A DNA stretch of 64,000 nucleotides. Origin: Rhizophagus irregularis. Its lineage: Eukaryota > Glomeromycota > Glomeromycetes > Glomerales > Glomeraceae. Of the stretch, positions 9,036 through 61,919 are shown piece by piece. The notes under the pieces were generated by a model, which did no database searches, had not been told where the DNA came from, and saw only the letters and a program-made list of their open reading frames with translations. A program made the translations under genes and the position numbers. Positions within the stretch are counted from its first letter, which is position 1; every line of letters starts with the position of its first letter. Location: assembly GCF_026210795.1 (NCBI RefSeq), contig NC_089455.1, forward strand, positions 1,364,001 to 1,428,000. The letters are read 5' to 3'.

Positions 9036-9942
9036 AAAGAGATGTGACTATATAAAAAATTTCTTATATTTGTATATCATAATTCCGGCCAAAAATTAAC
9101 ATAATTTTAGCCAGAATTATACTTAAAACTTTATTGTATCGTAACTTCGTCAATATTAATCGTAGAAAGATGATCTTACCGCCATTCGATTCGTCTTGAT
9201 GAGACGGTTCTAATGGTATAAAATACGTCGAAATCCAATCACTAGATTAATTTCCGAAATTAAAAAAATATTAATGGTTTTTGTTTAATACCTCTGCCAA
9301 TATTGATCCTAGAAAGACGATCTTACTACCATTCGATTCGTCTTGATGAGACGAATCTAATGGTATAAGATACATCGAAATCCAATCACTAGATCAATTT
9401 CCGAAATTAAAAAATATTAAATGGTTTTTAAGTAATAACTCCGTTAATATTGATCACAGAGAGATGAGCTTACCACCATTCGATTCGTCTCGATGAGGCG
9501 ATTCCAACGAGCTATAAATCGTCTTTTTACAATCACTAGGTACCGAGAAATCTAGCAAAATGTTAAATGGCGCAGTAAACGTAAATCAAGAAATATTATA
9601 ATGCCGATATTTAACATTTTGTTGAATAACTCGTCAGCCAGTGATCGGAAAAGAATAAAACTACCACCATTCGATTTGTCTCAGTGAGAGGATTCTAACA
9701 AGCTATGATACATCTTTGTACGATCATTAGATGCCAAGTTATTTAATATATTCTTTATATAACTGTGATTATAAACGGTTTTTTTTAATATAAGATTTTT
9801 GAGGATAGGTGTGATAGTGACTATAGATAGATTGTGACTATATAGGATAGATTTTAATAATAATGTGTTTTGAACATTCAACTGGTGTGACTATATAGTA
9901 GAATGTGACTATAACGGGAGTGACTATAGAGGGAGTTGACTG
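9022..9942. mobile_element. Pogo-like non-autonomous element, copy A (left ~40 bp displaced by LINEs)
   Basis: Member of a family of about 0.96 kb. Complete copies begin CAGTCAACTC(T/C)CTTTATAG, end with the matching inverted terminus ...GAGGGAGTTGACTG, and are flanked by TA. Near the right end there are several direct GTGACTATA motifs. Inside are four or five modules of about 140 bp, each holding a hairpin (GATTCGTCT, 5-nt loop, AGACGAATC). No transposase is encoded. TA targets and CAGT-type ends fit Tc1/mariner-pogo mobilisation. The missing left terminus should lie beyond LINE copy 1, outside the window. Confidence 0.8.
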
Positions 9943-9944
9943 TA

Positions 9945-10661
9945 CATCGAAATCCAATCACTAGATTAATTTCCAAAATTAAAAAAACATTAATGGCTTT
10001 TGTATAATAACTCTGCCAATATTGATCCTAGAGAGACGATCTTACTACCATTCGATTCGTCTTGATGTGACGAATCTAATGGTATAAAGTACATCGAAAT
10101 CCAATCACTAGATCAATTTCTGAAATTAAAAAATATTAAATGGTTTTTAAGTAATAACTCCGTCAATATTGATCACAGAGAGATGAGCTTACCACCATTC
10201 GATTCGTCTTGATGAGGCGATTCCAACGAGCTATTAATCGTCTTTTTACAATCACTAGGTACCGAGATATTTAGCAAAATGTTAAATGGCGCAGTAAATG
10301 TAAATCAAGGAATATAATAATGCCAATGCTTAACATTTTGTTGAATAACTCATCAGCCAGTGATCGTAAAAGGATAAAACTACCACCATTCGATTCATTT
10401 CAGTGAGACGATTCTAACAAGCTATGGTACATCTTTGTACGATTATTAGATGCCAAGTTATTTAATATATTTTTTATATAACTGTGATTATAAACGGTTC
10501 TTTTTAATATAAGATTTTTGAGGATAGGTGTGATAGTGACTATAGATAGATTGCGACTATATAGGATAGATTTTAATAATAAAGTGTTTTGAACATTCAA
10601 CTGGTGTGACTATATAGTAAAATGTGACTATAACGGAAGTGACTATAGAGGGAGTTGACTG
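9945..10661. mobile_element. Tandem duplication of the inner and right parts of the pogo-like element
   Basis: Sequence 9945-10663 repeats 9225-9944 almost base for base (about 720 bp units). The second unit begins abruptly in the interior (catcgaaatccaatcacta), right after the first right-hand TA, and ends with a second right terminus. It therefore has two right ends and no second left end. Confidence 0.85.
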
Positions 10662-12047: not shown

Positions 12048-15000
12048 ATGGAAACAGCATTTAAATCACGTCGTGTAAAGGTTTACCAACTTAACAAGGA
12101 TAGCGAATGGGTGGACAAAGGGACCGGGATTTGCTCATGTTTGCGCAACAGAGTAAGTTTTATTTTATCTTTCAACGAACGATTTCAACTACCAATGTTA
12201 ACAAAAAGCAATATATAAATAAATTGTCATTACTGCTTTTAAGATTTTGTTATTTGAGCTCATCTTAAGAGTTGGGACATTCCTCCTGCTTGATCAAAGC
12301 AAATAACCTAATAAAATGTCATTGAATAAGCATAAACGTAAAAATATTAATCAATTTTGTATCGAAGAAATTACATTATAAACTTCATATAGCTTATACG
12401 AGGATTTATACGTGAAATAAGAGCTTTGTTAATTTCGTTTTAATAACATAGGCAAAGGACGATGCTCTTATAATTGTCCGATCGGAAGAAGACTCATCAT
12501 CTATTTTGTTAGAATCTCGTGTTTTACGAGATATAGACTATCAAAAACAACAGGGTATGAATAAGAATTTTTTTTTTTTGGCTTGTTTTGTTCGTAAGTT
12601 TTTATTGATCTTTAATAATATATAATATATAATAGACACATTGATTGTCTGGACTGAACCGAATGGCTCAGATTTAGCCTTGAGCTTTCAGGAAGCGGAA
12701 GGTTGCACGGAGATATGGTAATTATAAATGTTATCTCATTTTAATAATTCTTTCTTAACAATACTTGTCTAAATTATTTTTAGCACCTTTGTGAATGATA
12801 TACAATCCAATATGACGTCAGAAAAAGCGAAGGGAAAGCGAAGAGCTTCCTCCCCTCTTCCAGAGAGAGAGCCACGAGGCATGGCTGTTGTACTCCCGGA
12901 ACCAACTCTAGCAAATTTACCAGAGATTGAACGAGTAGTCAAAAAGGCCACCCGCTCAATTTACGAACGAGAAAAACTTGCATCACATGTCTCGCAGGTA
13001 TATATTTAATCTTTTATTTGAGTTTATTTTTGGCGTAATCGAAGATTTTTCTTATATAATTTATCATAGGAGTACATAGCTAGGCTTCTGCCATTGCTTA
13101 AAACTTGTGAAGATCTTGAGCAGGTGCAAGATCTTTACAGATTATGTAATATCATGAAAGGTTTCAGTAAGTAGTATTTACATTTATTGTTTGAATAATA
13201 TCAATAATATCATCAATACATATTTTATCTTATTCTTGTTTTTTCTTAATTATTAGTAATGTTGCAAGATAATGATATCATCCGATACGTACTTCGTGAC
13301 GATGTCATTCTTGATGTTGTAGGATGTCTAGAATATGACCCAGACTTCCCAAAACATAAGGCTAATCATCGGGAGTTTTTGACCAAAAATTCAAAGTTCA
13401 AAGAAGTAGTATAGTTTATGATTTAGCCATTTTTAAAAAATTAATTTTGATATTGACTTAATTTTTAACTAATAGATCGTAAAGATATCTAACAAGACAA
13501 TCAAGGCAAAAATTCACGAAACATTTCGCCTACAATACCTCAAGGACGCTGTATTTGCCAGAATGATGGACGATCCCACGAATTCGGTGCTTGCATCGTT
13601 AATTTTCATTAATCATGTTGAAATCTGCAAGCACTTTACACAAGATGAGAAGTTCCTAGATGAACTTTTCCAAATTTTAGAACGCGAAGAGGAATCGTCG
13701 GAACGAAAACGTGACGTCGTATTATTCACGTCACAACTTTGCATTATAGCAAAGAACATACATTTACCACATAGAAGAGATTTGCATAAGCAAGTATAAG
13801 TATTTGTTAGCTCTTAAATTAGTATCGCATATTATAACCACAATTCAATTATAGAGCACTGGTTCGTAATGGAGCATTACGTGTTTTCGACTTTTCATTG
13901 AGTAATAACCATGCAACCATTAAAGCGGCTGGTGGAGATATATTGGCAAATATTCTTGAGACCGACGCAAGTCTTGTTAGAACTTACAACGTAGTTCAGG
14001 CAGAACATAAACAGAAGACTTTGGCTGAAACCATTATCAACCGTCTATTAAAAGACAGGGACTGTTTTACCAAAGGACAATACGCCGAAGCTATCCGAAT
14101 GCTATTGGATTTGAGTGCCGATCAAACCGAAGTTGGCACAACTACTACTGAAGACCCGCAGGCCAAAAAGGACAATGAGGAATTTATTACTTTTTTCTAT
14201 GAACATCTTATTAAGAAATTGGTTAAACCAATAATGGAATTCCCAGAAATTGCAGATGATGAGGGTAAATATTACTTTGGCTCTTTCGGTATAAATTTTG
14301 TCAGATGACGAGATGATTGAGATGATTGATTTAAATTTTACACTGTAACAGAAATTCCATGGTTATCATATGATAAGGCTACTTTAGCATTTCATATTTG
14401 TGAACTTTTATCGTTCCTCATCAAGCAGCATACCTACCGAAGCAAATATTTCTTACTTTCAAGTAAGATAAGTTTAAAAGTAGTCGAATTGCTTCGATGT
14501 CGTGAAGGAACAGTTAAACTTGGTAAATAATATTAATTTATCGATTAATTATTCATCAAAAAAGATTTTTATTTTCAATACTAATCTTAATCTTTTAGCT
14601 GCATTGAGATTTATTCGTGCTTGTATAGGAACGAAAGATTATGAAATCATCTATCGGCATTTTATTAGTAAAGAGAAAGATATATATGGTCATATAGTTC
14701 GCGCCTTATTAGCTACGAAGGGAAGGGATAATCTTGTTAACTCGGCCTGTCTTGAATTTTTTGAATTCATTCGAAAGGTAATTCAACTTCCTTAACCTTT
14801 TATACTTAAATAGTTAATTGTTGTAGCGATTTAACGAGAGTTTTTTTGCTAATTAATAGGAAAATATTAAGTTTCTTGTAAATCATATTTGGGAAAAATA
14901 CAGGGACAAGCTCTCAACAATTAAATATGTCAATTGTTTTAATCAATTCAAACTTCGTTACGAGCAGAATAGTGAAGTAATTCAACCATCTATACAACAA

Positions 15001-17314: not shown

Positions 17315-17324
17315 ACAACCAACT
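17315..17324. repeat. 10-bp target-site duplication, left
   Basis: acaaccaact, repeated exactly at 18936-18945 on the other side of the 1.6 kb element. Confidence 0.95.
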
Positions 17325-18935
17325 AAGGTTGCCTGCCGAAACTCATTTGGCCTGGTGCCGAAAGCCAAAACTCTTTTATTAGTGCCAAAACTGCCGAAAC
17401 GCTGAAACGCCGAAACCTGCCGAAATGCCGAAACTGCCGAAACTATTTGCAAGTTTCGGCATAGTTTCGGCATAGCTAATACTAACATCTTAATATAGTT
17501 TTGGCATAATTTCGGCATTCTATAATAACTTTTTTTCATTAATTTAATTCCAATATATATATACGTAATTAAATATTTTATTATATTATTTATTTTATTG
17601 TAATAAACCAATTTTTATAAACAATGGTATACTATAAGAAACACACTCGTTTCTTCGAAGCAATTAAATAAAACTTTCCATATAAAAAAGTTTGGTAAAA
17701 AAAAACAAAAAAAATAGAAGGAACGTTATAACGTTTCTTCAATATATTAAAAAAAAGATTCCTTCCCCCTTCCTTAAGCCTTACATACCAAGTATCCCAA
17801 GTTCGGGTTCTTCAAGTTCCTAGGAGTCCGGTAACCTAAAAAAACAGAAAAAAGAAACATTAGTACGTTTCTTTAACACAATTAAACACAGTACCCCATA
17901 TACTTACCGAAGACCGGTTCTTTTCCAAGCCTCCGAGTCCGGTATCTTAAAAAAAAACAGAAAAAAGAAACGTTAAGTACGTTTCTTTAACACAATTAAA
18001 CACAGTACCCCCATATACTTACCAAAGATCTGTTCTTCCAAGTTCCTAGGAGTCCGGTAAACTAAAAAAAACAGAAAAAAGAAACGTTAGTACGTTTCTT
18101 TAACACAATTAAACACAGTACCCCATATACTTACCAAAGACCGGTTCTTCCAAGTTCCTAGGAGTCCAGTAACCTAAAAAAACAGAAAAAAGAAACGTTA
18201 GTACGTTTCTTTAACACAATTAAACACAGTACCCCATATACTTACCGAAGACCGGTTCTTCCAAGTTCCGGAGTCCGGTATCCTAAAAAAAACAGAAAAA
18301 AGAAACGTTAGTACGTTTCTTTAACACAATTAAACACAGTACCCCATATACTTACCAAAGACCGGTTCTTCCAAGTTCCTGGAGTCCGGTAACCTAAAAA
18401 AACAGAAAAAGAAACGTTAGTACGTTTCTTTAACACAATTTAAACACAGTACCCCATATACTTACCAAAGTCCGGGTTCTTTCAAGTTCCTAGGAGTCCG
18501 GTATCCTAAAAAACAAGAAAATAGAAACGTTTGTACGTTTCTTTAATACAATTCAAGAAAAAATTAAAAAAAATTAACGTTAGTAAAATATACTAACGTT
18601 AAAATAAAGGGTGGGCGGGCGATCATAAAATTCAACGTTAAATTATCTTTTTAACGTTAAAAAAGTTTTTTTTAAAAAAAAAATAACGATAACGGTTTAA
18701 AAACCCGTTTTAGATTATCAATGATCAGTTAAAAAACTGATCGAAGCTTAACTGAATTAAGAAATGCCAAAACTATATGTATATCATATGATATACTGCG
18801 CTAAAACGCCGAAACAGTTTCAGCAGTTTCGGCAGTTTCAGCATTTCGGCATTTTCAGTTGCTTGCCGAAACCTAGTTTTGGCAGTTTTGGCAGTTTCGG
18901 CATGCCGAAACTCCCTAGTTTCGGCAAGCAACCTT
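17325..18935. mobile_element. 1.6 kb AAGGTTGC-type non-autonomous element (10-bp TSD, MULE-like)
   Basis: Inverted ends are AAGGTTGCCTGCCGAAAC and GTTTCGGCAAGCAACCTT, with perfect 10-bp direct repeats outside. Subterminal regions are rich in gccgaaac/gtttcggc repeats. Nine- to eleven-bp duplications are typical of the Mutator/MULE superfamily. No transposase is present; the interior instead carries a tandem array (17690-18550). It is the longest member of a family also seen at 20396, 31441, 44091 and 44911. Confidence 0.9.
17690..18550 (-). repeat. Tandem array of exon/intron-like units (about 7 x 108-120 bp)
   Basis: Read on the minus strand each unit has GTAAGTATATGGGG, then a hairpin GAAACGTACTAACGTTTC, a polypyrimidine tract ending TTTTTTTAG, then 36-40 nt beginning GTTACCGGACTCC and ending CGGTCTTTG, then GTAAGT again. 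The stretch from GTAAGT to TTTAG is about 72 nt, the size of introns in the PP4R3 gene. The exon-like blocks differ by 1-3 nt (cctagg, cctgg, ccgg variants), so no reading frame is kept. The first unit, near 17690-17830, is degenerate. Confidence 0.88.
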
Positions 18936-18945
18936 ACAACCAACT
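18936..18945. repeat. 10-bp target-site duplication, right
   Basis: acaaccaact, identical to 17315-17324. Confidence 0.95.
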
Positions 18946-19040: not shown

Positions 19041-20003
19041 TAGTCAACTTTCTTTATAGTCACACATTTGGGACAGTCCATATTTGGTGATTATAAAGAG
19101 ATGTGACTATATAAAAAATTTCTTATATTTGTATATCATAATTCTGGCCAAAATTAACATAATTTTAGCCAAAATTATACTTAAAACTTTATTGTATCAT
19201 AACTCCACCAATAATAATCGTAGAGAGATGATCTTACCACCATTCGATTCGTCTTGATGAGACAGTTCTAATGGTATAAAATATATCAAAATCCAACCAC
19301 TAGATTAATTTCTGAAATTAAAAAATATTAATGGTTTTTGTGTAATAACTCTGTCAATATTGATCCTAAAGAGACGATTATACTACCATTCGATTTGTCT
19401 TGATGAGACGAATCTAATGGTATAAAATACATCGAAATTCAATCACTAAATCAATTTCTGAAATTAAAAAATATTAAATGGTTTTTAAGTAATAACTCCG
19501 TCAATATTGATCACAGAGAAGTGAGCTTATCACCATTTGATTTGTTATGATGAGGCGATTCCAACGAGCTATTAATCGTCTTTTTATAATCACTATGTAC
19601 CAAGAAATTTAGCAAAATGTTAAATGGCACAGTAAACGTAAATTAAAAAATATTATAATGCTAATGTTTAACATTTTGTTGAATAACTCATCAGCCAGTA
19701 ATCATAAAGAATAAAACTACCACCATTCGATTTATCTCAGTGAGTCAATTCTAACAAGCTATGGTATATCTTTATACAATTATTGGATGCCAAGTTATTT
19801 AATATTTTTTATTTTTTATATAACTGTGATTATAAATGGTTCTTTTTAATATAAGATTTTTGAGGATAGGCATGATAGTGACTATAGATAGATTGTGACT
19901 ATATAGGATAGATTTTAATAATAAAGTATTTTGAACATTCAACTGGTGTGACTATATAGTAGAATGTGACTATAACGGGAATAACTATAGAGGGAGTTGA
20001 CTA
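19041..20003. mobile_element. Pogo-like non-autonomous element, copy C
   Basis: Full-length copy of about 963 bp with a slightly decayed left end (TAGTCAACTTTCTTTATAG) and right end (GAGGGAGTTGACTA, then TA). It shows the uninterrupted LINE target at 19081-19094. It holds the same hairpin modules and GTGACTATA repeats as the other copies. The 66-codon minus-strand frame seen in other copies is disrupted here. Confidence 0.88.
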
Positions 20004-28690: not shown

Positions 28691-29482
28691 GTCGGGTCTG
28701 GCGATCCCTGGTGGCCGATACCCACCATACGGGGGCTGATCCTGGACAGATGCCTGCTACTTCCTGTCTGAGTGGTCACTACAAAGTATACCACTTGGGG
28801 TAAACAACTGTACTATCGGTGCTAGGTAATGCGGGGCAATATGCTTTGAGTGAGGCTTAGTATCAAAAATGGTGGTATGAAAGTGCTTAGATGGTTTATG
28901 TTACCTGTCGAAAGTCCTCCATGAAAGTAGATGCTCTCTAAAGGTCGTTAAATAAATTGAGTATTAGTATCACGCAATGGGTATAGGATGAGTAGGCGGC
29001 GTGTACCTAGCTCAGATCAGCCTAAATGGCCCGATGGGGGATGTCTTCTATAGTGGTGCTGTTACCTGAGGAATTAAGTACTCGGTTTAATGGTTGCCCA
29101 TTGAAGGTGATAGGACACAGACCCGAGATTAGTCTCATAAGAGGCAATGGGTGGTCTGGCCGTAAACACTTGCAAAGGAAAAGGATAAAACTACCACCAT
29201 TCAATTCGTCTCAGTGAGACGATTCTAACAAGATATGATACATCTTTGTATGATTATTAGATGCCAAGTTATTTAATATATTCTTTATATAACTGTGATT
29301 ATAAATGGTTCTTTTTAATATAAGATTTTTGAGGATAGGTGTGATAGTGACTATAGATAGATTGTGACTATATAGGATAGATTTTAATAATAAAGTGTTT
29401 TGAACATTCAACTGGTGTGACTATATAGTAGAATGTGACTATAACGGGAGTGACTATAGAGGGAGTTGACTGTATATACAGC

Positions 29483-29570
29483 ATGGAAATCTTCATGATA
29501 GTACCAATCCCTAAGCCACACAATTTCAACTACTATTGTATGGAAAATGTCTTATTGGAATCTATTTAAT
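29483..29570 (+). pseudogene. Small relic of a LINE reverse transcriptase
   Basis: One short open stretch reads VPIPKPHNFNY and then NVLLES, resembling the (V/Y)PIPKP ... NTRPI.LLE segment of the LINE reverse transcriptase near 4860. Nothing else of the gene is recognisable. Confidence 0.45.
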
Positions 29571-29731
29571 ATTTTGAAGACAATTTAATAAAATTTTGCA
29601 AACAATTGAATGAAATTTAGTAATAATTTTAAACAATTACAATTTACTGTAAACGCCATAATAATTTAAAATACTAGCTTAATAATTTCATATAATTTAT
29701 CATAATAATATTTATTAATAAATACGTAATT

Positions 29732-30074
29732 GCACTGAAGTGGGTCAGTGTTAAAGATGTTGGCTGTAAGATGTTAGAAAGTAATTGGAATAAATGGAAT
29801 GATTTGGCATTCTATCGAGGCGGTCATTGGGCAAATTTTTAGGTAGATCATGACAGTCACCTTTGAATTTGAGGTCGCATCATAGTTTTTAACAATGATG
29901 TGATCGTTTAGGTGACAGGTCGACTTGTTCTTTATGAAAAGTAGTCTTGTTTCATAATGCTTAATTTTTATATGTATTTGTTTATCTTATATTTTGTAAG
30001 TTTATATATGTAAGTAAGCGTGATTATAATAGGACATAATCGCATCTATAATAAAGTATTAAAAAAAAAAAAAA
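29732..30074 (+). mobile_element. 5'-truncated retroposed fragment with poly(A) and TSD
   Basis: A 343 bp insert ends with aataaag, then a run of about 16 A. It is flanked by 18-bp direct repeats (29714-29731 and 30075-30092) with two differences. The first third is open and ends ...FYRGGHWANF then stop, which may be the end of a retroelement or host protein; it was not identified. Poly(A) plus a long TSD shows LINE-type target-primed insertion. Confidence 0.75.
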
Positions 30075-30092
30075 ATTAATAAATACACAATT

Positions 30093-30423
30093 ATTATTAT
30101 TTAACAATAATCTATATTTATCAGATATCTGATGATTTATGGATAATCCATACCTCTAATTCATTCATATATCAAATGTTTAGTATTAAAATAAAAGCTG
30201 GTGAAAACCTAAAAAAGAAAAAAAAATAAAATATTAATATATTTTTTGTTGAAAAAAATTAAAATAAAAAACATTTCAAATTATATATCTTTGAAATGTT
30301 AAATTCTATATATCTAAGGACAAGAACCGCTGAACCTAAAAAAAGAAAAATGAAACATTAATATATATTTTGTTAAAAAAAAATTAAAATAAAAAAGATA
30401 TTTTAAAGTAGAAAATTTATAAA
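30093..30423. other. AT-rich stretch with relics of the exon/intron-like repeat
   Basis: Read on -, it holds CATTTTTCTTTTTTTAG followed by GTTCAGCGGTTCTTGTCC, and a second similar polypyrimidine-AG near 30210. These match the pattern of the tandem arrays at 17.7 and 61.0 kb. Confidence 0.5.
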
Positions 30424-31440
30424 TGTACACGTAGTGTGTGGACACATACCACATGATATATGTTCGCGTCATGATAAATATAGCTGCTGCGCCAATAGCG
30501 ATACATTTATTTACGTCATACGATGGAATTATTTACGTCATAATCATAAGGTCCTATTGTTAAAATTACATTGTTCTTCTCTCTTGCTTTCTATCTAACC
30601 TTTTGGTATAATCAAGATGAATAAAACAGAACAAGAAAATGTTAGTTGTGGTGAACAATATGATGCTTCACTTTCAATGATAACTTACATAATTTTCTTC
30701 TGTTGTATATCGTTATGTTTTCTCTATCTTCTGTTACATGTTCCCTCTTTCTTTCGTTATATATGTTTTCTCTATCTTTGTTGTATATGTTTCTTCTATC
30801 TTATTATTTGTCATCAATCATCTAATTAAAGAATCTGCCTAACAGCTTAATGAAACGAACTCAAATTCATTTGTTGATAATGTAATGGACCCAAAATTAT
30901 TCGTTGATAATGATATAGACCTGAAATCATTCATTGATGATGAAACGGATGAGTCTGATAGACCAGATGAGCCATCTGATTCTTTAAAATTAACCTCTGG
31001 GCTTACCTTTACCGACTGGGAAGACTTCAAAGTTGGTTACATAGGTTTGCGTCAAAAGAGGGTTTCAGTTATAAGATCAGAATAAGCGAAACTATTCAAG
31101 GTGTAATGCGAAGGGCCACTTACGAATGCACAAAATCTGGGTCTCATAATCCACAAACTACATCGGATCCGACAAAGCAACGCAATGCTCATTTCCAACA
31201 AACACTATGCCCTTGGAAACTTAACGTCACTCGTTCAAAAACAGGAGTTGTAAAAGTAAACTCGTTTAATAACGAACATAATCATCCGCTTATCCTGTTG
31301 ATTCAAGAAATAGCCCCGCGGTTTCAGAAGTTGACAAAGGAAATGTTGGCCGATATAGAGAAGTATGTCATTAAAGGGCGAATGGATTCGGTATCTATAT
31401 ATCCCCTATCAAGGCATGACTATCTAGATCAGCCTATTCT

Positions 31441-31682
31441 AAGGTTGCTTTCCGAAACCTAGGGGTTTAGGCAAGATGGCGTTTCGCCGAAAAGCGAAAT
31501 TCTGCCGAAACTATATTAAAGTTATATTAAAAAACTGGCGAAACTTTGGAGAAAGGCGAAACTGCCAAAACTTATTATAAATGCTGAAACTGCTGAAACT
31601 CTGTCAAAACTATAATAAATCTATAGTAAAATTTTGACAAAACTAATCGTAGGATTTTGAAGAGGTTTAGACAAGCAACCTT
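31441..31682. mobile_element. AAGGTTGC-type MITE, 242 bp, inside the MULE gene
   Basis: Ends AAGGTTGCTTTCCGAAAC and ...CAAGCAACCTT. Flanks agcctattct and agcctattta match at 8 of 10 positions. Same length as the copy at 44911-45152 but inverted relative to it. It splits the coding sequence between VSIYPL and the next transposase segment. Confidence 0.88.
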
Positions 31683-31979
31683 AGCCTATTTACAAAAAAA
31701 TTTGTATAATGCAATTTATCAGTTTCGACAAAAATATAATCCGGGAGATGAGGATGCCCTCGATCTTTCAACGATTGATGGACTGGAAGAACTTGGAACC
31801 GCTTTGGGTTGTAAAGACTCGATTAGATCCAATTTCAAGGAGGTTGATTTCTCTTTTATGGATGTCATCTACACAAAGAGAGTTATATAGTAAGCACAAT
31901 GATGTCGTTATAGTTGATAGCACTTATAACACAAACCAATTTCAAATGATCCTTTGTACCGTAACCATAATTGATAATA

Positions 31980-32940
31980 CAGTCAACTCCCTCTATAGTC
32001 ACTCCCGTTATAGTCACATTCTACTATATAGTCACACCAGTTGAATGTTCAAAACACTTTATTATTAAAAACTATCCTATATAGTCACAATCTATCTATA
32101 GTCACTATCACACCTATCCTCAAAAATCTTATATTAAAAAGAACCGTTTATAATCACAGTTATATAAGGAATATATTAAATAACTTGGCATCTAATAATC
32201 GTACAAAGATGTATCATAGCTTGTTAGAATCGTCTCACTGAGATGAATCGAATGGTGGTAGTTTTATCCTTTTGCTATCACTGGCTGATGAGTTATTCAA
32301 CAAAATGTTAAGCATCGGCATTATTATATTTCTTGATTTACGTTTACTGCGCCATTTAACATTTTGCTAAATTTCTCGGTACCTAGTGATCGTAAAAAGA
32401 CGATTAATAGCTCGTTGGAATCGCCTCATCAAGACGAATCGAATGGTGGTAAGCTCATCTCTCTGTGATCAATATCGACGGAGTTACTACTTAAAAACCA
32501 TTTAATATTTTTTAATTTCGGAAATTGATCTAGTGATTGGATTTCAATGTTTTTTATACCATTAGATTCGTCGCATTAAGACGAATCGAATGGTAGTAAG
32601 ATTGTCTCTCTAGGATCAATATTGGTAGAGTTATTACACAAAAACCATTAATATTTTTTTAATTTCGGAAATTAATCTAGTGATTGGATTTCGATGTATT
32701 TTATACCATTAGAACCGTCTCATCAAGACGAATCGAATGGCGGTAAGATCATCTCTCTACGATCAATATTGGCGGAGTTACGATACAATAAAGTTTTGAG
32801 TATAATTTTAGCTAAAATTATGTTAATTTTTGGCCGGAATTATGATATACTAATATAAGAAATTTTTTATATAGTCACATCTCTTTATAATCACCAAATA
32901 TGGACTGTCCCAAATGTGTGACTATAAAGAGAGTTGACTG
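31980..32940. mobile_element. Pogo-like non-autonomous element, copy E (inverted), inside the MULE gene
   Basis: 961 bp, bounded by TA on both sides (31978-31979 and 32941-32942). Ends CAGTCAACTCCCTCTATAG and CTATAAAGAGAGTTGACTG. Removing it and one TA rejoins the MULE reading VTIIDN to the downstream sequence, which gives direct evidence for a 2-bp TA target duplication. Orientation is opposite to copies A, C and D. Confidence 0.93.
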
Positions 32941-44910: not shown

Positions 44911-45152
44911 AAGGTTGCTTGTCTAAACCTCTTCAAAATCCTATGATTAGTTTTGTCAAAATTTTAATATAGATTTATTATAGTTTCGGCAGAGTTTCGG
45001 CAGTTTCGGCATTTATAATAAGTTTCAGCAGTTTCGCCTTTTTCCAAAGTTTCACCAGTTTTTTAATATAACTTTAATATAGTTTTACCAGAATTTCACT
45101 TTTCGACGAAACGCCATCTTGCCTAAACCTCTAGGTTTCAGCAAGCAACCTT
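44911..45152. mobile_element. AAGGTTGC-type MITE, 242 bp, exact 10-bp TSD
   Basis: Ends AAGGTTGCTTGTCTAAACC and ...TTTCAGCAAGCAACCTT. Flanked by exact atgtataatt (44901-44910 and 45153-45162). Reverse-oriented sister of the copy at 31441-31682, with the same length. Confidence 0.93.
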
Positions 45153-57720: not shown

Positions 57721-57839
57721 AACTGTATAAAAAAAAATATTTTAAAACATGTTATTAAACCCATTATTGAAAAAATCTAACTAAATATTATACAAGTTCA
57801 GAAATATAAACAATTTTACCTTAAATTACAAAACACCAC

Positions 57840-58045
57840 TCCCCCTTCTTATATTCCTTACATTCCAAGTCCTGGGTTCGTTTTCAAGAGTCTGGCATCC
57901 TAGTTTTACAAAAAAAAAAAGAAAGAAACGTTAAAAATGTTTCTTAATTACAAAACACATAACCTTCTCCCACATTACCTTTATTATATAGGTACAGCTC
58001 GACGATTCGTCCTGGTTTTCAAGAGTCCAGCGTTCTACAAAAAAT
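57840..58045 (-). repeat. Two exon/intron-like units
   Basis: Minus strand: polyT-GTAAAACTAG, then GATGCCAGACTCTTGAAAAC, then GTAAGGAATATAAG; and a second, partial unit at 57960-58040. It has the hairpin gaaacgttaaaaatgtttc. This resembles the 17.7 kb array in order and spacing. Confidence 0.6.
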
Positions 58046-61009: not shown

Positions 61010-61870
61010 TTTAGTAAACATTTCCTTTTTTTTCAGATTGCTAGACAAAAACTATGACCGGACTTTTGGATTATGTAAGTGGAAGGGGAATTATATTTTA
61101 TTTTTTTGAGAAACGTTACTAACGTTTTCTTTTTCTTTTTTTTTTAGATTATCGGACGAATAATATGAACCAAACTTTGGAATTTAGGTAAAAAAGGAGG
61201 TTGGAAAGTGTATTTTTTTATTATATTCTTTAAAAAACGTTACTAAATGCTTCTTCTCTTTTTTTATTTAGGTTACTGGACAAAAATTACGAACCAGACT
61301 TTGGAATTTAGGTAAAAAGAAGGTTGGAGGTTTTTTATTAATTCTTTAAGAAACATTATATAATGTTTCTTTCCTTTTTTTTCAGGTTGCCAGATGAAAA
61401 CTACAAACTGAACTTTAGAATAAAGGGTGGGTGGATAACAATTTTTTAAGAAAAATGTTCTAATGCTTCTATTTTTCTTTTTTTTTTAGGTTGCCAGACG
61501 AATAATACGAATCAGACTTTGGAATTTAGGTAAAAAAGGAGGGTCAGAATTTTGATTTTTTTTATTATATTCTTTAAGAAGCGTTACTAAATGCTTCTTT
61601 CTTCTCTTTTTTTAGGTTACTGGACGAAACTACGAACCAGACTTTGTAATTTAGGTAAAAAGAGGGTTGAAGAGTAGGTTTTTTTATTAATTCTTTAAGA
61701 AATGTTATTAAACGTTTCTTTCATTTTTTTTTCAGATTGCTGAATGAAAACTATGAACCAGACTTTGGAATTATGTAAGTGAAGGAGGGAATAACATATT
61801 TTTTTAAGAGAAACGTTCTAACGCTTCTCTTTTTCTTTTTTTTAAATTGCCGGACGAATAATACAATCCA
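61010..61870 (+). repeat. Second tandem array of exon/intron-like units (about 8 x 105-125 bp)
   Basis: On + each unit has a polypyrimidine ending (T)nAG, a 38-40 nt block of the type GTTGCCGGACGAAAACTACG...CAGACTTTGGAATTA, then GTAAGT or GGTAAAA, an AT-rich spacer, a hairpin (AAGAAACGTT ACT AACGTTTCTT-like), and polypyrimidine-AG again. One unit (61385-61440) has lost its donor. The exon-like blocks resemble those of the 17.7 kb array (GTTACCGGACTC...GAAC...ACTTTGG). The array starts right after the ORF1-only retroelement. Confidence 0.88.
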
Positions 61871-61919
61871 GAAATAAAAAATTTGTAAATCAGAATGTTA
61901 TTCATCTTTATTAAATGAA

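Follow-up and report, generated by a model that had tools for sequence, protein, structure and literature searches.

A micro-exon-like array with near-identical hairpin introns inside a candidate Mutator-type element of Rhizophagus irregularis

Introduction

What is an array of short repeats in which each unit is built like a tiny exon followed by an intron? Such an array lies in a 64,000-nt stretch of the genome of Rhizophagus irregularis (contig NC_089455.1; this whole stretch is called the window here), which has 30% G+C and many repeats and encodes FAR1, LINE-type endonuclease and PP4R3 domains, all in keeping with an arbuscular mycorrhizal fungus. In the excerpt of the R. irregularis study drawn on here, repeats over 24% of the genome are left uncharacterised, and MULEs are described as adjoining expanded genes and as proposed drivers of the expansion, with Pack-MULEs as the cited parallel (PMC8647823). 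Cargo of a mobile element, ordinary satellite, live gene and spreading intron are the answers that we weigh for this array.

Results

A tandem array with the signals of short introns

On the minus strand, from 18505 to 17790, seven exon-like blocks of 37-46 nt are parted by introns (array 1, Table 1). TRF reports the tandem repeat at 17806-18553 with a period of 110 nt and 6.7 copies, which confirms the location and the minus-strand repeat of the original prediction. That prediction had put the blocks at 36-40 nt; the blocks do repeat, and the measured range replaces the predicted one. Introns 1-6 start with GTAAGTATATGGGG, with one extra G after block 5, and after block 7 the diverged GTATGTAAGG stands in its place. 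The palindrome AAGAAACGTACTAACGTTTCTT is present exactly four times, in introns 1-4; variants of it occur in the other introns and a diverged form follows block 7. About seven units had been said to present TACTAAC in a hairpin with 7-bp arms. The hairpin is indeed there, but its arms in array 1 extend to 10 bp, and TACTAAC is intact in four introns only, with changed motifs in introns 5 and 6 and in the remnant upstream of block 1 (Table 1).

In the order expected of U2-type introns, GT, branch motif and T-tract-AG follow one another in introns 1-6, with GT and AG in all six. The strict chain GTAAGT, TACTAAC, T6+ and AG is found in four of these six introns on the minus strand, and a scan of both strands of the window returned it only once elsewhere, at 61075 on the plus strand, within a second array described below. 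The chain was absent from all 200 simulated single strands of 64 kb, drawn from a first-order Markov model, a null that shows its rarity and not a blind choice, the pattern having been drawn up after the array was seen.

Nine introns of the PP4R3 gene, placed by eye, served as a comparison within the window. They are 65-90 nt long and one measures exactly 72 nt, which makes the earlier likening of the 72-nt spacing to PP4R3 introns a fair one. At branch-like sites they form stems of 5-7 bp at best, as against 10 bp in array 1, and the longest T-run within their last 30 nt is 2-8. The spliced PP4R3 frame is broken somewhere, its longest open stretch being the last 585 codons, and we think that an intron near 14.3 kb was omitted from the splice model. 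In the same gene, a GC-AG intron with a GCAAGT donor is probable at 13790-13854 (+), as judged by eye from frame continuity.

A CRISPR-like repeat-spacer reading of array 1 was ruled out, the variable blocks 1-6 being 83-97% alike. Across the whole window, no tRNA was found and no known RNA family reached its gathering score.

Table 1. Positions in the window of array 1, the surrounding element and related features
Feature	Position	Strand	Remarks
Element E1, 1611 bp, holding array 1	17325..18935	.	TIR element; inverted ends 18/19 alike, 10-bp TSD
Left TSD copy	17315..17324	+	ACAACCAACT, exact
Left terminal inverted repeat	17325..17343	+	AAGGTTGCCTGCCGAAACT
Diverged old-type intron after block 7	17697..17789	-	array-2-like sequence; without clear AG
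Exon-like block 7, 46 nt	17790..17835	-	end uncertain
Intron 6, 72 nt	17836..17907	-	branch motif TACTAAT
Exon-like block 6, 38 nt	17908..17945	-	
Intron 5, 77 nt	17946..18022	-	branch motif changed to TACTTAAC; 3' end TAAG
Exon-like block 5, 39 nt	18023..18061	-	
Intron 4, 73 nt	18062..18134	-	
Exon-like block 4, 39 nt	18135..18173	-	
Intron 3, 72 nt	18174..18245	-	
Exon-like block 3, 37 nt	18246..18282	-	
Intron 2, 73 nt	18283..18355	-	
Exon-like block 2, 38 nt	18356..18393	-	
Intron 1, 72 nt	18394..18465	-	GTAAGT, branch-point hairpin, T-tract-AG
Exon-like block 1, 40 nt	18466..18505	-	
Remnant intron 3' half upstream of block 1	18509..18555	-	hairpin with TACAAAC; nhmmer E 2.1e-7 vs array-1 profile
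Right terminal inverted repeat	18917..18935	-	AAGGTTGCTTGCCGAAACT
Right TSD copy	18936..18945	+	ACAACCAACT
E1 family ends			AAGGTTGCNTGCCGAAACT
MITE, 242 bp	31441..31682	.	E1 TIR family; TSD 8/10
MITE, 242 bp	44911..45152	.	E1 TIR family; perfect 10-bp TSD ATGTATAATT
Locus 3	57827..58030	-	two related blocks, one hairpin intron
Array 2	61037..61884	+	8 related exon-like blocks of 38-40 nt, 7 introns of 64-86 nt

Array 1 is enclosed by inverted ends and a duplicated 10-mer

Array 1 sits inside E1, an element bounded by terminal inverted repeats (TIRs) and a TSD (Table 1). Scored as a 20-nt arm pair, the ends of E1 are 95% complementary. The TSD 10-mer ACAACCAACT occurs twice in the window, both times abutting an end of E1, where 0.10 occurrences are expected. 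Given TIRs and a TSD copy at both sides, E1 was therefore most likely inserted as a unit. A pattern built on the E1 ends and allowing up to three mismatches matched the window six times (0.02 expected); two of these matches arise by construction, and the four others are the ends of two 242-bp MITEs that are mutually 92.6% alike.

TIRs with a 10-bp TSD are typical of Mutator-type elements, whose TSD class is 9-11 bp. Both E1 and the MITE at 44911-45152 combine TIRs with a 10-bp TSD, and from TSD length and TIRs only we infer that E1 is probably of the MULE type. MITEs are defined as TIR elements of 50 bp-1 kb without transposase (PMC11075540), a size that E1 exceeds at 1611 bp.

Several other repeats were noticed in the window. 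The MITE at 31441-31682 starts within the end of a FAR1-domain ORF (30980-31462), which appears to lie inside an element with ends unlike those of E1; a possible larger element round this ORF, 29430-32022, has the TSD-like ACTATATAGT and ends AGAATGTGAC. Repeats of 15 nt (GTGACTATAAAGGGA or similar, other strand) are located at 9905, 29435 and 31981. A 146-147-bp tandem repeat family occupies four places: 9142-9504, 9942-10214, 19199-19566 and 32427-32788.

Related arrays in the same window

Array 1 has relatives at two other loci, array 2 and locus 3, and the order GT, G-run, hairpin, T-tract and AG is common to all of them. Of the seven array-2 units, a profile of array-1 units 1-6 detected two at E ~2e-5 (61057-61143 and 61755-61842) and two further ones only at E 0.56 and 0.97; locus 3 was matched at 58030-57910 with E 8.3e-4. 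A profile of array-2 units 1-7 matched unit 7 of array 1 (17833-17707) at E 9.2e-8, locus 3 at E 8.9e-5 and the remaining six units of array 1 at E 6.8e-5 to 0.011. Compared by their exon consensuses alone, arrays 1 and 2 are not significantly alike, the score being reached by 475 of 5000 shuffles, and for this reason the family link depends mainly on the introns and block boundaries, whose sequence is T-rich. The two arrays are tied together by the intron that follows block 7, which belongs to the array-2 type. All intron-profile matches in the window lie between related blocks and none outside them. Among the parts of the window looked at, no intact member, no first exon with a start codon and no donor gene was found.

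In array 2, roughly every three units make up a higher-order repeat (TRF period 342-349 nt), and the array is situated directly 3' of an ORF-bearing stretch that runs from 59140 to ~60995 and closes in an A-rich run. By eye, inverted ends like TATAGTGCAGAACCTCTATA were seen next to locus 3, at ~58070 and ~58855, and resemble those of a small TIR element.

Introns of array 1 are far more uniform than its exon-like blocks

When units 1-6 were aligned (unit 7 excluded), substitutions were present in 16 of 40 exon columns and in one of 79 intron columns (Fisher 3e-8). Dropping also unit 6, the middle part of which may be misaligned, left 8 of 40 exon columns and 0 of 79 intron columns that vary (Fisher 1e-4). 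A circular change-point scan that was blind to the splice sites selected columns 0-39, which is the block minus its last G. Permutations as good as the observed segmentation numbered 0 of 300 with unit 6 and 1 of 300 without it, with a slight bias toward the observed value in that they used every second segment length only. In an introns-only alignment of array 1, 2 of 78 columns are variable, and the remaining intron changes are length changes of one to a few bases, mostly in homopolymers. Mean divergence in array 1 amounts to 15.4% for exons vs 0.9% for introns. Near-identical introns between differing exons are the reverse of what is seen in an ordinary gene. We conclude that the two parts of array 1 have had different histories or are under very different constraint, with the edge between them at the predicted splice sites. 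Constraint on the intron, or its spread, fits the uniform introns better than a normal gene does.

Could the intron itself be the unit that spreads? One version would then have taken the place of older introns at six junctions of an exon repeat that had already diverged, whether through conversion or through reverse splicing, or would itself have been selected as a product. Pairwise identities of 99-100% over aligned bases for introns 1-6, as against 83-97% for their exons, are in keeping with this idea, and so is the last unit of the array: the first 40 nt of exon 7 are about as close to the other array-1 exons (83-92%) as these are to each other, whereas the intron after it shows 78-85% identity to introns 1-6 with 21-26 gap positions. 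The contrast is moreover absent from array 2, where both parts have diverged (exons 26% and introns 34% by MAFFT); gapped pairwise alignment gave exons 65-92% and introns 81-94% alike there, the introns having 7-30 gap positions. The pattern is however confined to six junctions of one array, no copy of the array-1 intron stands outside related blocks in the window, and gene conversion centred on the palindrome could mimic it. We accordingly hold a spreading intron to be improbable, and give hardly more credit to the narrower claim of intron-level copying, in which a 72-nt hairpin intron swept six junctions of a mobile array with exact splice-site edges and left the exons diverged. If intron-level copying were true, the array would be an intron nursery, or what is selected would be the introns excised from it. 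Gene conversion centred on the hairpin is itself weakened as the source of intron uniformity, because exon positions 1, 2 and 6 vary although they are closer to the hairpin than the 5' end of the intron, which does not.

The branch-point hairpin and its predicted folding

Folding predictions make the branch-motif hairpin a plausible structure. The 16 family hairpins were aligned in 13 rows (four identical ones forming a single row, some ends clipped by 1-2 bases), and the eight inner pairs were formed in 92.1% of 101 cells, compared with 40-70% when the pairing was slid. The minimum-energy fold contained the branch-motif hairpin in all six of introns 1-6 and in five of the seven array-2 introns. 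Pairing between the T-tract and the purine-rich 5' end was predicted in five of seven array-2 introns. RNA folding z ranged from +0.64 to -4.10 over 15 family introns. It was -1.3 to -1.9 for introns 1-6, a modest gain over shuffles, -0.9 for the old intron after block 7, +0.6 to -4.1 for array 2 and -1.8 for locus 3, where the folded stretch runs a few bases past the intron; the nine PP4R3 introns gave +0.9 to -2.0. We count the modest z of introns 1-6, the one PP4R3 intron at -2.0 and the altered branch motifs of introns 5 and 6 against the explanation that we prefer (see Discussion).

Covariation in the hairpin was at shuffle level, with its score reached in 159 of 500 shuffles and the two-sided changes in 136 of 500. 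This non-significance too counts against the preferred explanation, and it is in line with an ordinary satellite within a transposon, whose splice-like motifs would be the unused by-product of a T-rich palindromic repeat. TIR elements often contain internal tandem repeats, and blocks that do not code cleanly would likewise be no surprise in a satellite. Against a satellite stand the full signal chain, which is absent from 200 null strands and present once in array 2 as well, the rate boundary on the predicted splice sites, and, in array 2, GT in six of seven introns and AG in six of seven despite strong divergence. A satellite is the more serious of the alternatives in our judgement, although a rather unlikely one.

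Coding capacity of the spliced blocks

Only two of seven block lengths in array 1 and three of eight in array 2 are divisible by three, and the exon lengths thus break the frame as had been predicted. Stops are found inside several array-1 blocks and, after splicing, in all three frames, two of which each have a stretch of 76 open codons. Searched against Pfam, three spliced peptides (two from array 1, one from array 2) gave no match above cut-off, and for array 1 neither a start exon nor a signal peptide was seen by eye. Array 1 is not regarded as an intact protein gene. Since the lengths of the blocks put the frame out of step and stops occur in some of them, the chain no longer encodes a uniform repeat protein; we therefore take array 1 to be a copy that is decayed or non-coding, with introns that have stayed uniform.

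A live, effector-like micro-exon repeat gene, with exons diversifying under selection and introns kept for splicing, would account for variable exons between invariable introns and for the 76 open codons in two frames. It would also have precedents, as far as the cited excerpts go: micro-exon genes (MEG) encode secreted proteins in Schistosoma (PMC10526429), accelerated evolution is reported for micro-exon genes at the host interface (PMC4350168), and in Rhizophagus AGL genes the introns are more conserved than the mature coding sequence (PMC8786786). The frame-breaking lengths, the stops and the negative searches for a start exon, signal peptide and Pfam domain all speak against such a gene, and a near-100% intron identity exceeds what splicing alone needs; we attach little probability to it. 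An SP7-like repeat effector was rejected on a misfit of motif and intron layout: visual inspection of the blocks, translated in three frames, did not show the SP7 motif Y[KR]Rx[AP]x[AP] as given in the excerpt of PMC11333574.

Discussion

The explanation that we favour, and consider somewhat probable, is that the locus represents a non-autonomous Mutator-type element with an amplified micro-exon/intron cassette that would be spliceable if transcribed and would no longer code cleanly. A TIR element of MULE type, with the array as its cargo, would have entered as a whole and left a 10-bp TSD. The cargo would be a cassette amplified in tandem, made up of a single micro-exon of ~39 nt and a single short U2-type intron, a member of a dispersed family with three loci in the window, perhaps captured from a gene and since bereft of its coding function. 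Were the minus strand transcribed, the spliceosome could excise each intron and the micro-exons would be joined in a chain; the predicted signals are the U1 site GTAAGT, UACUAAC or a variant displayed in the hairpin, and T-tract-AG.

The exon/intron reading of the original prediction is supported by the absence of the signal chain from the null (0/200), by the edge of variation on the predicted splice sites and by a similar anatomy at two other loci. For its further ideas, a spliceosome sponge and the seeding of introns, nothing in the window speaks. New beyond that prediction are the array as cargo of a TIR/TSD element, the related arrays, and introns that are far more uniform than exons. A DNA transposon with ready-made exon-intron cassettes would give a simple genome route for the spread of introns and repeat exons. 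The sharp rate change at the predicted splice sites provides a sequence-only test of intron homogenisation apart from exons, which bears on intron gain.

Scans for exact matches to patterns of the hairpin, also in degenerate form, of the TIR and of the exon returned no relatives in viral contigs and prokaryote genome contigs; around their lone match, in the IMG/VR contig L001, 2400 bases look like unrelated coding sequence. By title and start of abstract, no such array was described among the matches listed in literature searches that covered mostly papers outside subscription, and a literature search yielded no paper on introners in Glomeromycotina.

Among known systems, Pack-MULEs and MULE-type gene-carrying elements resemble E1 in having TIRs, a 10-bp TSD, a non-autonomous make-up and exon-intron-like cargo. 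What sets E1 apart from them is that its cargo consists of micro-exons in tandem and has relatives beyond the element, at 58 and 61 kb. Introners are near-identical introns at many unrelated positions. Like introners and sequence-similar stwintrons, array 1 has near-identical introns, but within the window all copies occupy one and the same junction of a single repeat, and no twin intron is among them. The near-terminal stems of sister stwintrons, as described in the excerpt of PMC12403724, recall the pairing of 5' end and T-tract in five of seven array-2 introns.

Repeat proteins of arbuscular mycorrhizal fungi offer a further comparison. The intron conservation of AGL genes resembles that of array 1; yet, in the excerpt of PMC8786786, these genes have one or two introns and not one between every repeat. 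For SP7, the excerpt of PMC11333574 describes a conserved intron that precedes the first repeat, and not, as here, introns between all repeats. Of known gene architectures, that of the schistosome micro-exon genes comes closest. According to the excerpted part of PMC10526429, their very short exons of 6-81 bp alternate with introns, and the array-1 blocks of 37-46 nt fall inside that range; the exons of these genes are mostly multiples of three and their introns measure 0.1-5 kb, whereas here the frame is broken and the introns are 64-86 nt long.
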